Assembly (NCBI GenBank): GCA_947589115.1
Contig: CANPZP010000018.1
Coordinates: 1 to 32,701 of the forward strand
Direction: 5' to 3'
Origin: Candidatus Gastranaerophilales bacterium
Lineage (GTDB): Bacteria; Cyanobacteriota; Vampirovibrionia; Gastranaerophilales; Gastranaerophilaceae
Length of the DNA: 32,701 nucleotides
Shown: in pieces, positions 10,150 to 17,422 of the stretch
Layout: each line of letters begins with the position of its first letter
Numbering within the stretch: the first letter of the stretch is position 1
Made by a program: the position numbers and the translations under genes
Notes under the pieces: model-generated
What the model was told of the DNA's origin: nothing
Database searches by the model: none
The model's input: only the letters and a program-made list of their open reading frames with translations

Positions 10150-10971
10150 TTATTGCTCCTTCCCTTGTTTTTTTAAACCGGAAAGGAATTTTTTTATTTT
10201 TCCCACAATATCCTTAGGCCGGTCTATATCTAAGAAAGGAACATCTTCTCCGTTTATTCTTCTTGCCACATTTATATATGCTTTACCCGCAAGGGATTTT
10301 TCATTATTAACAATAGGTTCACCTTTGTTTGTTGATGTTATAATCCCTGAATCTTCGGGAATAACCCCTATTTTCTGGCATGACAGAATATTTTCAACAT
10401 CCTCAACGCTCATCATATCATTTGACTTAATCATGTTAGGTCTTACACGATTAATAAGCAATTTATAGCTTTCAATTCCTTCTGCCGCTTCTAAAAGACC
10501 TATAATTCTGTCCGCATCTCTTACTGCTGACATTTCGGGAGTCGTTACCACTATTGCTTCAGATGCTCCTGCTATTGCAGTTTGAAATCCCTGTTCTATA
10601 CCTGCAGGACAGTCTACCAATATAAAATCATAGTCTTTTTTGAGTTTATCAGTAATTTTTTTCAATTGTTCTGCATTTACTGATGATTTATCTCTTGTTT
10701 GCGCCGCTGCAAGTAAACATAAATTAGGATTCTTTTTATCTTTTACCAATGCTTGTTTTAATTTGCATCTTTCTTCCACAACGTCAACAAGTGTATAAAC
10801 AATTCTGTTTTCTAACCCTAACAGTAAATCTAAATTTCTGAGTCCTATATCGGTATCAATAAGAACAACACTGTGTCCGTTTTTTGCAAGTGCGCTTCCG
10901 ATATTGGCGCTTGTAGTGGTTTTCCCCACTCCGCCTTTTCCGGATGTTATTACTATCACTCTCCCTGTCAT
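10150..10971 (-). CDS. minD: Septum site-determining ATPase MinD
   Basis: ParA/MinD-family ATPase that binds the inner membrane in the ATP state, recruits MinC, and is released by MinE. The deviant Walker A is SGKGGVGKTTT with signature lysine K12 and K17; switch I is IDTDIGLRNLDLLLGLE (38-54) and Walker B is DFILVDCPAGIEQG (115-128). The last 20 residues (VGKIKKFLSGLKKQ) form a basic amphipathic helix that serves as the membrane-targeting sequence, which separates MinD from Soj/ParA. Length 273 is typical. It lies 12 bp after minC and directly abuts minE. Confidence 0.97.
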   Translation of the reverse strand: MTGRVIVITSGKGGVGKTTTSANIGSALAKNGHSVVLIDTDIGLRNLDLLLGLENRIVYTLVDVVEERCKLKQALVKDKKNPNLCLLAAAQTRDKSSVNAEQLKKITDKLKKDYDFILVDCPAGIEQGFQTAIAGASEAIVVTTPEMSAVRDADRIIGLLEAAEGIESYKLLINRVRPNMIKSNDMMSVEDVENILSCQKIGVIPEDSGIITSTNKGEPIVNNEKSLAGKAYINVARRINGEDVPFLDIDRPKDIVGKIKKFLSGLKKQGKEQ

Positions 10972-13033: not shown

Positions 13034-13709
13034 TTAATTTAAAAGCCAAGATTTGTAATAACAAGGCGGATTTGGGCATGTCGGGCTTTCAACTGTCAAA
13101 TCAGAAAAGTAAAGAGGTGCCACTTTTGACGGAACGGAGGGATTCGGGCAGGTACCTCCTTCAGCTGCGCAAATTCTACTTCCTTTTTCATCAACAAATG
13201 TGAAAAAGAATATATCTTTACCCGCTCTATTGGGTTTTCTGTTTCCGTTTGTGTCTACAATAAATATATTTTCATATGCGCTGAATTGTGCCCACACTCT
13301 CCCTGATGAATCTATAAATAATTCTTTATTGCCGCTGCAATTTGGGAAACACCAATATTCTTCTTTACTTTTCCAACAGTCGGTAAAGTTTGAATTATCG
13401 CAGGTTTTAGTTATAATAAAGGACTTTTTTATCTGTTCCCACTCTTGTAAAGTGATTTTTGCATCAGCTTTATTTTCTCTCATCGGAAACTCACCAAACG
13501 CAATACTTTTTAAAAGAGCGTTAGTTAAATCGGTATGAGCTTTTTTGTATGAGGTTTTAAATTCTTGTTCTTGAGTATGGTTTAAAATCATGGGAACTGT
13601 TATAGCCGCAACAACTCCTATAACCGTAATAGCTATAAGAAGCTCAGATAAAGTAAATGAAAGCGTTTTTCCGCCACGGGGGGGGGTAGATTTGATGTTT
13701 ATTTCCCAT
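13034..13709 (-). CDS. Type IV pilin-like (pseudopilin) protein, leader out of frame because of a C9 tract
   Basis: The open frame contains a prepilin segment, GGKTLSFTLSELLIAITVIGV followed by VAAITVP, i.e. a peptidase site with the invariant Glu at +5, then a hydrophobic helix. The globular part is Cys-rich and has FIVDTNGNRKPNRAGKD, reminiscent of the calcium-site loop of GspG-like pseudopilins. As read, this frame has no ATG, GTG or TTG before the internal Met at 13591, which lies inside the pilin helix. The likely start, ATG at 13709, is one base out of frame, and a run of nine C (minus strand, 13686-13678) lies between them. With eight C the leader would read MGNKHQIYPPRGGKTLSFTLSE. A good promoter lies upstream. 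The cell may switch this gene by slippage, or the run may be a sequencing error. Function: probably a minor (pseudo)pilin of a type II secretion or type IV pilus machine. Confidence 0.8.
13678..13686 (-). repeat. Homopolymeric C9 tract in the pilin-like leader
   Basis: Nine consecutive G on the + strand (C on the coding strand), between the ATG at 13709 and the prepilin cleavage motif. This is a strikingly GC-pure run in very AT-rich DNA. Changing its length by -1 or +2 would join the ATG to the pilin frame. Confidence 0.95.
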
Positions 13710-13769: not shown

Positions 13770-13847
13770 GAATTTTCAAGAAATAGAAAAATTCTTATAG
13801 CAAGAGTTTAAAAAATATGATAGTATATGAAAAAAAGGAAAAACATT

Positions 13848-15485
13848 ATGCAGACTACACCAAAAAAATTATCACATCTTTTAAGAGCAAGATTCCCATA
13901 TATTTATATATCTTCTTATGAAGAAGAAAGAGCCACAAAATTTATTAAAGATATAGTAACGGATATTGCACAGGTAAAATATCCGAGAGAAGTATTTATT
14001 TGGACTCAGGCAAACGGATTAAAAAATTATGAAAATAAGACAATGGCAAGTGCACAAGATGCCAATTCCGTTATATCTTATATTGAAAAATATAATAAAG
14101 ATGCAGTATTTATTCTATACGATTTTCACGTATTTTTCGGGCATAAACAAAGACCGGCTGACCCTGTTATTGTTCGTGCTTTAAGAGATTTAATCCCTGT
14201 TCTGAAAACAAGTCAGGTAAGAAAAAATATTATATTTATATCTCCTGATTTGGTTATTCCGGACACATTAAAAAAAGATATAGTAATATATGATTTTCCG
14301 TTACCTAAATTAGAAGAAATCAAAGAACGATTAGATAAAATGATTTTAGGTAATAAAGGAATAAATACAACAACTCTTGCCGAAGAAGATAAAGATAAAA
14401 TATGTAAAGCCGCATTAGGTTTAACAATGCAGGAGGCTGAAAATGCGTTTGCTCTTGCAATGGTTAATGACGGGAAACTTAATAAAAATGATATTTCCGT
14501 TATTTTAGAAGAAAAAATGCAGGTAATAAGAAAAACAGGAATGCTGGAATATGTCCAAAGTGATTTAGGCATTAATGATATAGGCGGATTAGACAACCTG
14601 AAAAAATGGTTATTGAAGCGTAACAATTCATGGTCTGAAAGGGCGAAAAAATACTGTTTGCCTGCGCCAAAAGGTGTTTTGGTAACAGGAATCCCCGGAT
14701 GCGGAAAAAGTTTAACCGCTAAAGCCATGAGTACTATCTGGCAATTACCCTTGTTAAGACTTGATTTAGGTAAAATATTCAGCGGAATAGTAGGAAGTTC
14801 CGAAGAAAATATGCGAAAAGCCATACAAACAGTAGAAGCTGTTGCCCCCGCAATATTATGGGTGGATGAAATTGAAAAAGGACTTAACGGAGTATCTTCT
14901 GCTAATGATAGCGGTGTTTCTTCGAGAATTTTCGGTACTTTCCTGACTTGGATGCAGGAAAAAACCGCACCTGTTTTCGTTATTGCAACGGCTAATAATA
15001 TCAGCCAACTGCCCTCCGAGTTGTTAAGAAAAGGTCGTTTTGATGAAATATTCTTTGTTGATTTACCTACATTAAAAGAACGTGAGGAAATTTTCAAAGT
15101 ACACTTGGCTAAACGTTTAAAAGATGAAGAAGTTTGCGCAAACATAAAACCTGATGATAACGAAATTATAAGCAAACTTGCACAAATGACGGAAGGATTT
15201 ATTGGTTCTGAAATTGAGCAGGTAGTTATTTCCGCATTATGCGATGCATTTTTTGAGAATAGAGCGCTTGAATTTTCCGATTTTGAAAAGGCGGTTAAAA
15301 ATACTGTTCCGTTATCTCAAACCCAAAAAGAACAAATACTTGCCATAAGAAGCTGGGCTAATGTAAGAGCAGTAAGCGCTTCTTCTAAAGAAAATATTGA
15401 TAATTATGTAGAAGTTCAATCTCAGGATAAGCCTGATGAACAAGATGTAACTTCTTCTCGTGGCGGAAGAAGGCTAGATGTATAG
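13848..15485 (+). CDS. Ycf46-like AAA+ ATPase
   Basis: AAA+ ATPase resembling the Ycf46 proteins of Cyanobacteria and plastids, whose role is not well understood (linked to inorganic carbon use in one cyanobacterium). Numbering from this ATG (545 residues): a degenerate N-terminal ATPase-like domain (about 10-160, with LLRARFPYIYISSYEEER), a helical segment, then the AAA module with Walker A GIPGCGKSLTAK (281-292), Walker B ILWVDEIEKG (336-345) and RKGRFDE with the arginine finger (394-400). The ATG at 13848 is preceded by AAGGAA at 7 nt; an in-frame ATG at 13827 adds seven residues (MKKRKNI) but would place this ribosome binding site inside the gene, and a TATGAT -10 box (13816-13821) implies transcription starts near 13828. 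First gene of a three-gene operon. Confidence 0.88.
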   Translation: MQTTPKKLSHLLRARFPYIYISSYEEERATKFIKDIVTDIAQVKYPREVFIWTQANGLKNYENKTMASAQDANSVISYIEKYNKDAVFILYDFHVFFGHKQRPADPVIVRALRDLIPVLKTSQVRKNIIFISPDLVIPDTLKKDIVIYDFPLPKLEEIKERLDKMILGNKGINTTTLAEEDKDKICKAALGLTMQEAENAFALAMVNDGKLNKNDISVILEEKMQVIRKTGMLEYVQSDLGINDIGGLDNLKKWLLKRNNSWSERAKKYCLPAPKGVLVTGIPGCGKSLTAKAMSTIWQLPLLRLDLGKIFSGIVGSSEENMRKAIQTVEAVAPAILWVDEIEKGLNGVSSANDSGVSSRIFGTFLTWMQEKTAPVFVIATANNISQLPSELLRKGRFDEIFFVDLPTLKEREEIFKVHLAKRLKDEEVCANIKPDDNEIISKLAQMTEGFIGSEIEQVVISALCDAFFENRALEFSDFEKAVKNTVPLSQTQKEQILAIRSWANVRAVSASSKENIDNYVEVQSQDKPDEQDVTSSRGGRRLDV

Positions 15486-15494
15486 GAGATTTTT

Positions 15495-16010
15495 ATGTCA
15501 GTAACAGTAACAGCAGTTCCTTTTTTGCTTTTTTCTACTATAGTACCTGCTTGTATTACTATGGTAGCAGGTGTTGTTGATGCCGTTCAAACAGGTAATA
15601 ATATTGACCAAAGTGAAAAACTGCATTTATCTGAAGAAGCTATTAAAAAAATATTTAACAGAAAATTTGAAACCGTAATAGTAGATAAAGATACACTAAT
15701 AAAAACCTTAGTTGAACACGGAGCAAATAATGTTTCCGAAACAGAAAATAGTGTTTCTTGTGATTTAGAGGCTTTTCATTTGAACTTTGTAAAAGATAAT
15801 CAAGAAGCACCTTATGGTCTGGTTATAAGTTATAATGAAGAAAAAGGTCTTGATGAACTCGTTGAAAATATAAGTTCGGAATACACAACCAATGCACAAG
15901 AAGCTTCTTATAATAAAATTAAAGAGCGTTTGGAAGCTCAAAAACTTACTATTGAATCTGAAGAAGTTCTTGATGATGATTCTATTGTTTTAACGGTTAA
16001 TTTGGAGTAA
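15495..16010 (+). CDS. DUF1257/Ycf35-like protein with hydrophobic N-terminus
   Basis: A 171-residue protein. Residues 1-30 are hydrophobic (AVPFLLFSTIVPACITMVAGVV), either a membrane anchor or a buried helix. The rest alternates strands and helices: DKDTLIKTLVEHGANNVSE, then a short strand region, LVISYNEEKGLDELVENIS, and a C-terminal SYNKIKERLEAQKLTIESEEV followed by a Val/Leu strand. This C-terminal pattern resembles DUF1257 (Ycf35), and in Cyanobacteria ycf35, ycf46-type and DUF2997 genes are associated; the context helped the call. Similarity is weak by eye and the N-terminal hydrophobic stretch is not typical. AGGAG in the ycf46 stop region precedes the ATG (9 bp between genes), so it is co-translated with the ATPase. 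Confidence 0.6.
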   Translation: MSVTVTAVPFLLFSTIVPACITMVAGVVDAVQTGNNIDQSEKLHLSEEAIKKIFNRKFETVIVDKDTLIKTLVEHGANNVSETENSVSCDLEAFHLNFVKDNQEAPYGLVISYNEEKGLDELVENISSEYTTNAQEASYNKIKERLEAQKLTIESEEVLDDDSIVLTVNLE

Positions 16011-16014
16011 TAAA

Positions 16015-16233
16015 ATGGCAAAAAAACAACTTAAAATAACTCTGCTTCCGAACGGAGAAGTAAAAATGCAAACTTTAGGCATTAAAGGTAAAAAATGTCT
16101 TAATTTTATTGAAATGTTTAAACTTCTGGCTGACGTAAGAATAAAAAAACAAGAATTTACTAATGAATATTACGAGCAGGAAGAAGAAAATTATATAGAA
16201 AATAAAAATATTCAAAATAATATAAGCTATTAA
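16015..16233 (+). CDS. DUF2997-like small protein
   Basis: A 72-residue protein. KKQLKITLLPNGEVKMQTLGIKGKKCLNFIEMF matches the DUF2997 layout (strand, NGEV turn, strand, G-x-x-C helix start), which in Cyanobacteria accompanies ycf35-like genes. The remaining residues (about 50-72) are polar, Glu/Asn-rich and probably disordered. GGAG lies just upstream and the gene begins 4 bp after the previous stop. Function unknown; the conserved Cys (C29) is notable. Last gene of the ycf46 operon. Confidence 0.65.
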   Translation: MAKKQLKITLLPNGEVKMQTLGIKGKKCLNFIEMFKLLADVRIKKQEFTNEYYEQEEENYIENKNIQNNISY

Positions 16234-16234
16234 A

Positions 16235-16420
16235 AGCCCTATATGAGCATGATTTTGTTACCTGTGAATGCTCCACAGGTGGGTAAGTGCCTTAACAAAT
16301 CCGTTTCCTGCTGCTTGGCAGGTTTACTGCATTGTTATGAGAGTCTGCTTTCCCTATTAATCAAGATGTAGGAACAAAATAAATACCCATACAGAGCTAT
16401 TTAATTATAGCACTTTTTTT
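16235..16420 (+). ncRNA. Candidate structured RNA (unassigned, 6S-like layout) ending in a terminator
   Basis: After the DUF2997 stop, about 185 nt without an open frame contain nested complementary segments: ATTTTGTT (16252-16259) with AACAAAAT (16373-16380); ACCTGTG (16260-16266) with CACAGGT (16274-16280); GGGTAAG (16281-16287) with CTTTCCC (16348-16354, one mismatch); TAACAA (16293-16298) with TTGTTA (16332-16337); CCTGC (16307-16311) with GCAGG (16318-16322). An imperfect closing helix joins 16235-16250 and 16383-16398. GAGCAT (16245-16250) is also complementary to ATGCTC in the first hairpin loop (16268-16273), an alternative fold. The region is more GC-rich than ordinary intergenic DNA here. 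A weak TATAAG (16221-16226) precedes it. It could be a 6S-type or other ncRNA, or a 3' UTR element; I do not recognise a known consensus. Confidence 0.5.
16396..16420 (+). terminator. Intrinsic terminator after the ycf46 operon / RNA candidate
   Basis: GCTAT / ATAGC stem (16396-16400 with 16407-16411), 6-nt loop, then AC and seven T. A short stem but with a clear T-tract; it separates this unit from the metallophosphoesterase promoter. Confidence 0.65.
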
Positions 16421-16459
16421 GTTAATTTTCATTACCTAAGTAATTATTTCTTTTATATC

Positions 16460-16474: not shown

Positions 16475-17422
16475 ATGAAGAATGTATTTAAAGATTTCTT
16501 ATTAATGTTATTTGTTATGGTTGTTATGTTTTTCGTAACAGAGCAGCCATCATTTTCAAGAGCTTTAAAATTTGTTCATTTGTCTGATATACATTATTCT
16601 TTGGTAACGGATGATTCATCGGGTTATAAGCTTTTATCTAATACAAGGCCGTTATTACAAGATGCAATTTGTCAAATTAATAATCAAAAAAACGTTGACT
16701 TTGTTATGATAACGGGTGACGGCATTGACAGACCTCAAAAAGAAGCTTTAATTAAACTTACTCAAGAACTTAATACCCTTGATTATCCTTGGTATTTTGC
16801 TTTAGGCAATCACGATACCACAACAAGCGGATATCTTACTAAATCAAATTTCATAAAAATTTTAAAAGAAAATAATCCAAATTATAAATTTGATTCTTCT
16901 TATTATACTTTTAAACCCAAAAAGGGTTATAGAGTTATAGTTTTAGACGGCGCAAAAAATAAAGGAATATCCTCTAACGGAGTTATAACACAAGAAGAAC
17001 TTATATGGCTTGATAATATTCTTGATAAATCAAAAAATGATATTGTGCTTATATTTCTTCATTTTCCCGTATTACCTCCATATGAAGAGAAACGACATGA
17101 AATTATCAACGTTAAAGAAGTAAAAAATATATTAAATAAGTATAAAATGCCTATTGCGATATTTACGGGGCACTATCATGCCGCCAAAATAACAAAAAGA
17201 GGTAATATATTACACGTTTCTTCTTCAAGTCTTGCAGGATATCCTAACGCTTTCAGAATTATTCAAATTGAAAAAAAACATAATAAAATTATTTTTAAGT
17301 TTGAGTTTATAGAAACTAATTTAAAAGATTTACAAGCCAAAACAAAAATATTAACACTCGGAGGTGCAAAATTTAGAGGCAAACCTCAAGACAGAGATAA
17401 TGTAATAATTATGGAAAAGTAG
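16475..17422 (+). CDS. Exported or membrane-anchored calcineurin-like metallophosphoesterase
   Basis: Predicted phosphoesterase acting outside the cytoplasm. Residues 1-29 are a signal peptide or N-terminal anchor (hydrophobic FLLMLFVMVVMFFV, then SRA). The five metallophosphoesterase motifs are complete: D38-x-H40 (HLSDIHYS), GDGID around D82, GNHD (111-114), H196 in FLHFP, and GHYHA with H233 and H235. Length 315 fits the cyclic-nucleotide/acid phosphatase-like class, but the substrate cannot be inferred. The next gene, an MBL hydrolase, starts 16 bp downstream and the TPR gene overlaps that, so the three form an operon. The start codon has no Shine-Dalgarno but a TGATATAAT 6 nt upstream. 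Confidence 0.88.
   Translation: MKNVFKDFLLMLFVMVVMFFVTEQPSFSRALKFVHLSDIHYSLVTDDSSGYKLLSNTRPLLQDAICQINNQKNVDFVMITGDGIDRPQKEALIKLTQELNTLDYPWYFALGNHDTTTSGYLTKSNFIKILKENNPNYKFDSSYYTFKPKKGYRVIVLDGAKNKGISSNGVITQEELIWLDNILDKSKNDIVLIFLHFPVLPPYEEKRHEIINVKEVKNILNKYKMPIAIFTGHYHAAKITKRGNILHVSSSSLAGYPNAFRIIQIEKKHNKIIFKFEFIETNLKDLQAKTKILTLGGAKFRGKPQDRDNVIIMEK

Follow-up and report, generated by a model that had tools for sequence, protein, structure and literature searches.

Which RNA do the nested complementary segments behind the ycf46 operon encode, and from which strand? The window (the whole 32,701-nucleotide stretch of DNA analysed here) holds ~165–173 nt of such segments between the DUF2997 stop codon (16231–16233) and position 16402. 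The original prediction described them correctly and was also right that they contain no reading frame: on neither strand is there an ORF of at least 60 amino acids over the structured stretch or in the wider interval that runs from the DUF2997 stop codon to the start of the phosphoesterase gene at 16475. It took the plus strand to be transcribed, implied a link to the ycf46 operon, ended the RNA at a T-tract terminator and knew of no consensus that fitted, while noting a 6S-type layout and proposing an Rfam search and a covariance analysis. On the sequence, the stretch is identified as an ordinary 6S RNA gene on the opposite strand. We are almost certain that it is a single-copy gene running on the minus strand from ~16400 to 16232, with its own predicted sigma70-type extended −10 promoter and a product that would adopt the 6S rod and mimic an open promoter. 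The gene, its strand, fold, conservation and promoter-like sequence are established by the analyses described below.

Identification of the 6S RNA gene

The Rfam scan of the window gave one match above the cut-off, to RF00013 (6S/SsrS), on the minus strand from 16402 to 16230, covering the full length of the model (1–187) with a score of 48.3 bits and an E value of 6.9e-07. Thus, a known consensus does fit, and the impression of a 6S-type layout was well founded, as supported by both the Rfam cut-off and order-wide covariation. The known family was found on the minus strand only; a permissive Rfam scan of 351 bases returned no 6S match on the plus strand even at an E value of 5. Rfam matches to SCARNA3 (16.7 bits) and AaHKsRNA20 (19.2 bits) were far under their cut-offs and were taken as chance. 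The gene (16230–16402, minus strand; ssrS/ssaA type, ~170 nt) was delimited with RF00013 and with R1, an order-specific covariance model built from 27 relatives within the Gastranaerophilales only, and its 5′ end is placed near 16402–16397.

The RF00013 score is barely over the gathering cut-off (48.3 versus 46.4 bits), as might be expected of a decayed, non-functional copy, but decay is highly improbable: the locus scores 172.4 bits with R1, comparable to same-genus copies, its invariant bubble motifs and promoter are intact, and it is the sole copy, since no second match to RF00013 was found in the genome. A weak R1 match at 10171–10261 on the plus strand (13 bits, E value 0.17) was taken as chance. 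The supposed orphan RNA is therefore replaced by a 6S RNA of a known family in non-photosynthetic gut cyanobacteria. In a search of the accessible literature, no paper turned up that mentions 6S RNA together with Melainabacteria.

Strand assignment

Any folded RNA contains complementary segments, and a complementary fold is expected on both strands. The minus strand folds with an energy of −54.5 kcal/mol (z = −5.0), which none of 200 shuffles equalled, and the plus strand with −44.7 kcal/mol (z = −2.35), equalled by three of 200. A plus-strand structured RNA, such as a 3′ UTR element or riboregulator ending the ycf46–DUF1257-like–DUF2997 operon, would agree with the position of the stretch directly after the DUF2997 stop codon and with a plus-strand fold somewhat better than its shuffles; the latter, however, is what the strand opposite any structured RNA should display. 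With the 27 relatives aligned, the consensus energy is −47.3 kcal/mol (47 pairs) on the minus strand and falls to −16.8 kcal/mol on the plus strand because G–U pairs turn into A–C. Tolerance of G–U pairs is a mark of the transcribed strand, and the cells at the 47 pairs include 156 G–U on the minus strand versus seven A–C (which would be G–U if the plus strand were transcribed); because the 47 pairs come from the minus-strand structure, this count is mildly biased in favor of that strand, a bias that does not touch the independently computed plus-strand consensus, which is far weaker nonetheless. Furthermore, Rfam yields no notable plus-strand match, the operon is absent beside the other 29 6S loci (flanks of up to 1.5 kb), and no covarying plus-strand fold was found to travel with it. 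We therefore assign the RNA to the minus strand on RF00013, fold energy and G–U asymmetry, contrary to the strand originally assumed, and regard a plus-strand RNA as having next to no probability.

Consensus structure and covariation

The covariance analysis shows that the helices of the minus-strand fold covary across the alignment of 27 relatives. In this alignment, 95.0% of cells are paired compared with 80.8 ± 0.7% in shuffles, two-sided changes occur at 25 of the 47 pairs and 186 cells are changed on both sides compared with 57.6 ± 7.2 in shuffles. None of the 500 shuffles attains the observed covariation values, and sliding the partners by one column lowers the pairing to 43–46%. The consensus is a rod of the 6S type (within ~160–200 nt) with a closing stem, a central bubble and an interrupted internal arm, and both arms of the rod covary. 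Support from covariation extends to the closing stem and the downstream helix as well as to the internal arm and the 3′-bubble hairpin.

All elements are given on the minus strand. The closing stem is formed by 16384–16397 (5′ arm) and 16236–16249 (3′ arm), with two-sided changes at nine of its 14 pairs (consensus columns 8–21 for the 5′ arm). The P2-like downstream helix pairs AUUUUGU (16374–16380) with 16252–16258 (helix 3, columns 168–174) through seven pairs, and 100% of its cells are paired. In the central bubble, the 5′ side (UCCUACAUCUUGAUUAAUA; 16355–16373) is unpaired in the consensus and contains a near-invariant UCC.ACA. The 3′ side holds a hairpin (ACCUGUG/CACAGGU; helix 9, 16260–16280) with 96% of cells paired and compensatory CG/UA/GC changes at its loop end. 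The internal (apical) arm (16281–16354) consists of interrupted helices (4–8) and is capped by an ACCUGC/GCAGG stem-loop.

A second fold had been proposed in which GAGCAT (16245–16250) pairs with ATGCTC (16268–16273). Both segments lie where they were reported, but the alternative pairing is not conserved in same-genus copies, and this switch was therefore rejected: the first segment reads GAATAT in locus L007, and locus L014 is changed on both sides without matching.

Putative promoter and transcript ends

A putative promoter (16404–16432, minus strand) lies immediately upstream of the gene and consists of a −35 element ATGAAA (16432–16427), a 17-nt spacer and an extended −10 element TGCTATAAT (16412–16404); it scored 10/12 with TG in the promoter scan, which alone gives a number of hits in the region not above shuffles. 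All eight aligned same-genus copies carry (A/G)TGAAA, a spacer of exactly 17 nt and TGNTATAAT upstream of 6S RNA, a pattern that on sequence suggests a dedicated promoter of the housekeeping type. A genome-wide search for TGNTATAAT was uninformative because it occurs no more often than the reversed motif used as a control.

The supposed T-tract terminator at ~16393–16420 is not upheld as the main reading since the conserved element here is the minus-strand promoter. What reads as a T-tract on the plus strand is this promoter's A-rich spacer, seen in reverse complement. On the plus strand, a GCTAT/ATAGC hairpin of −4.9 kcal/mol followed by T7 spans 16393–16417 and overlaps the 6S promoter; the hairpin is weak, and the terminator scan passed no candidate at plus-strand ~16393–16420. 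In three same-genus relatives, the hairpin of the equivalent stretch has an energy of −0.7, 0 and 0 kcal/mol.

These data also bear on whether both strands matter, with antisense read-through from the ycf46 operon, ended at 16393–16417, damping the minus-strand 6S RNA. The 3′ end of the 6S RNA abuts the DUF2997 stop codon, and transcription of the operon and of the 6S gene would consequently be convergent; GCTAT/ATAGC and TTTTTTT are both present in the window. The arrangement is nevertheless specific to this genome, since the operon is not beside 6S RNA in other loci; moreover, the hairpin is near zero in the same-genus relatives, the T-run belongs to the promoter spacer and the terminator scan was empty. 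We consider a role for both strands improbable, and it is slightly less probable still that convergent read-through tunes the 6S level as an antisense RNA in this lineage.

A point against the preferred reading, a 6S RNA gene on the minus strand, is that the other end of the stretch lacks a textbook terminator: only the closing stem and, directly after it, UUUU (TTTT, 16235–16232) are seen there. Runs of U after the closing stem are common at the 6S 3′ end in most relatives, and UUUU is likely to be the 3′ end here. As a separate matter, GCTAT/ATAGC with T7 on the plus strand may stop operon transcripts, solely in the genome of the window.

Genomic context

The divergent neighbor of the gene encodes a calcineurin-like phosphoesterase (PF00149; 16475–17422, plus strand) and is a conserved 6S neighbor in the genus: it adjoins the 6S gene or lies within ~1.3 kb of it in seven other same-genus loci. 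The distance is 73 nt in the window and in L007 and ~1.3 kb in six other loci; in L017 and L030 the intervening gene resembles, by eye, a C-terminal-processing protease.

The ycf46 operon, to which a link had been implied, proved to be an incidental neighbor because no ycf46, DUF1257-like or DUF2997 gene was found near any of the other 29 6S loci (flanks of up to 1.5 kb on each side), and because blastn detected no 6S RNA beside the ycf46 operon in the loci of the nearest Ycf46 relatives (L031–L033). The operon itself is common and conserved elsewhere, and the nearest relatives of its Ycf46-like ATPase (13827–15485), at 81–84% identity, are from Gastranaerophilales/Melainabacteria assemblies; on this one protein, the organism of the window presumably belongs to that non-photosynthetic gut order. 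A 185-residue ORF with no Pfam match (13034–13591, minus strand) lies upstream of ycf46 in the opposite orientation. The plus-strand gene between ycf46 and DUF2997 (15495–16010) also has no Pfam match; its relatives accompany ycf46 and DUF2997 in many bacterial groups, sometimes in a different gene order.

Distribution across the order and phylum

RF00013 matches were obtained in 152 of the 192 genomes of the order Gastranaerophilales, just 37 of them over the cut-off. The order-specific model R1 identifies one 6S copy in 186 of the 192, including genera with few or zero Rfam matches (for example, g18, g19 and g22). Most genomes of the order thus fall below the cut-off; the RNA is A+T-rich and a little short relative to the Rfam model. 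Comparison of the two counts (37 versus 186) indicates that standard annotation misses 6S RNA in most of the group; in practice, the public 6S model applied at its cut-off overlooks most 6S genes of Gastranaerophilales. R1 also recovers 6S RNA in all 12 loci tested from other families of the phylum (E values of 1e-6 to 1e-9), which had been chosen as strong RF00013 matches (103–115 bits), establishing homology to the accepted 6S RNAs of the phylum.

Comparison with known 6S RNAs and proposed function

The 6S RNA of the window is a new member of the 6S family, and the family itself is already known. Like ssaA of photosynthetic cyanobacteria (Synechocystis; PMC5721685), it is a rod with a central bubble. 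The 12 phylum loci were found by the model of the order in the right place, and the alignment reveals a common 3′-bubble hairpin (CCCACCUG...CAGGU) and a common apical core (AGUA-ACC...GGAAAC). The window RNA is shorter (~170 nt versus ~184 nt for cyanobacterial ssaA), and the neighbors differ: in L114 a purK-like gene (recognized by eye) precedes the 6S gene in the same orientation, whereas that of the window is divergent from the phosphoesterase gene. Bacillus subtilis 6S-1 differs in sequence and length, and the window genome has a single 6S RNA; 6S-1 does, however, share a central bubble with a 3′-side hairpin predicted in the free state, and its pRNA template extends from the 5′ bubble into the 5′ strand of P2, like the template predicted below (PMC8876501). 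Escherichia coli SsrS, also a member of RF00013, has a similar closing stem, bubble and internal arm, but its 3′-bubble hairpin arises on pRNA-induced refolding (PMC8876501), whereas that of the window RNA is predicted in the free RNA already.

In many bacteria, the small 6S RNA sequesters RNA polymerase. It binds the housekeeping holoenzyme by mimicking an open promoter and is set free once the polymerase has transcribed a pRNA, for which the 5′ side of the bubble and then the downstream helix serve as template (PMC8876501). By analogy, the most likely role of the RNA described here is that of an ordinary 6S RNA that would bind the σ70-type RNA polymerase and be released by pRNA synthesis; for this RNA, expression, polymerase binding, and pRNA synthesis and release are carried over from the family. 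The minus strand would be transcribed from the extended −10 promoter of the sigma70 type, and the product would fold into a rod of closing stem, central bubble and internal arm. Once growth stops, its resemblance to an open promoter would allow it to bind the housekeeping RNA polymerase holoenzyme, and synthesis of a short pRNA by the bound polymerase, templated by the 5′ side of the bubble, would then release it. The template is predicted at 16366–16380 (minus strand) from the Rfam alignment, the invariant columns and the published geometry (PMC8876501), with the start placed to within 1–2 nt. The pRNA would read near 5′-AUGUAGGAACAAAAU-3′ (plus-strand letters 16366–16380) and probably begin with (AU)GUAGGAACAAAAU. 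In the alignment of 27 relatives, a near-invariant UUUUG(U/A)UCCUACA occupies the position of this template in the 5′ side of the bubble.
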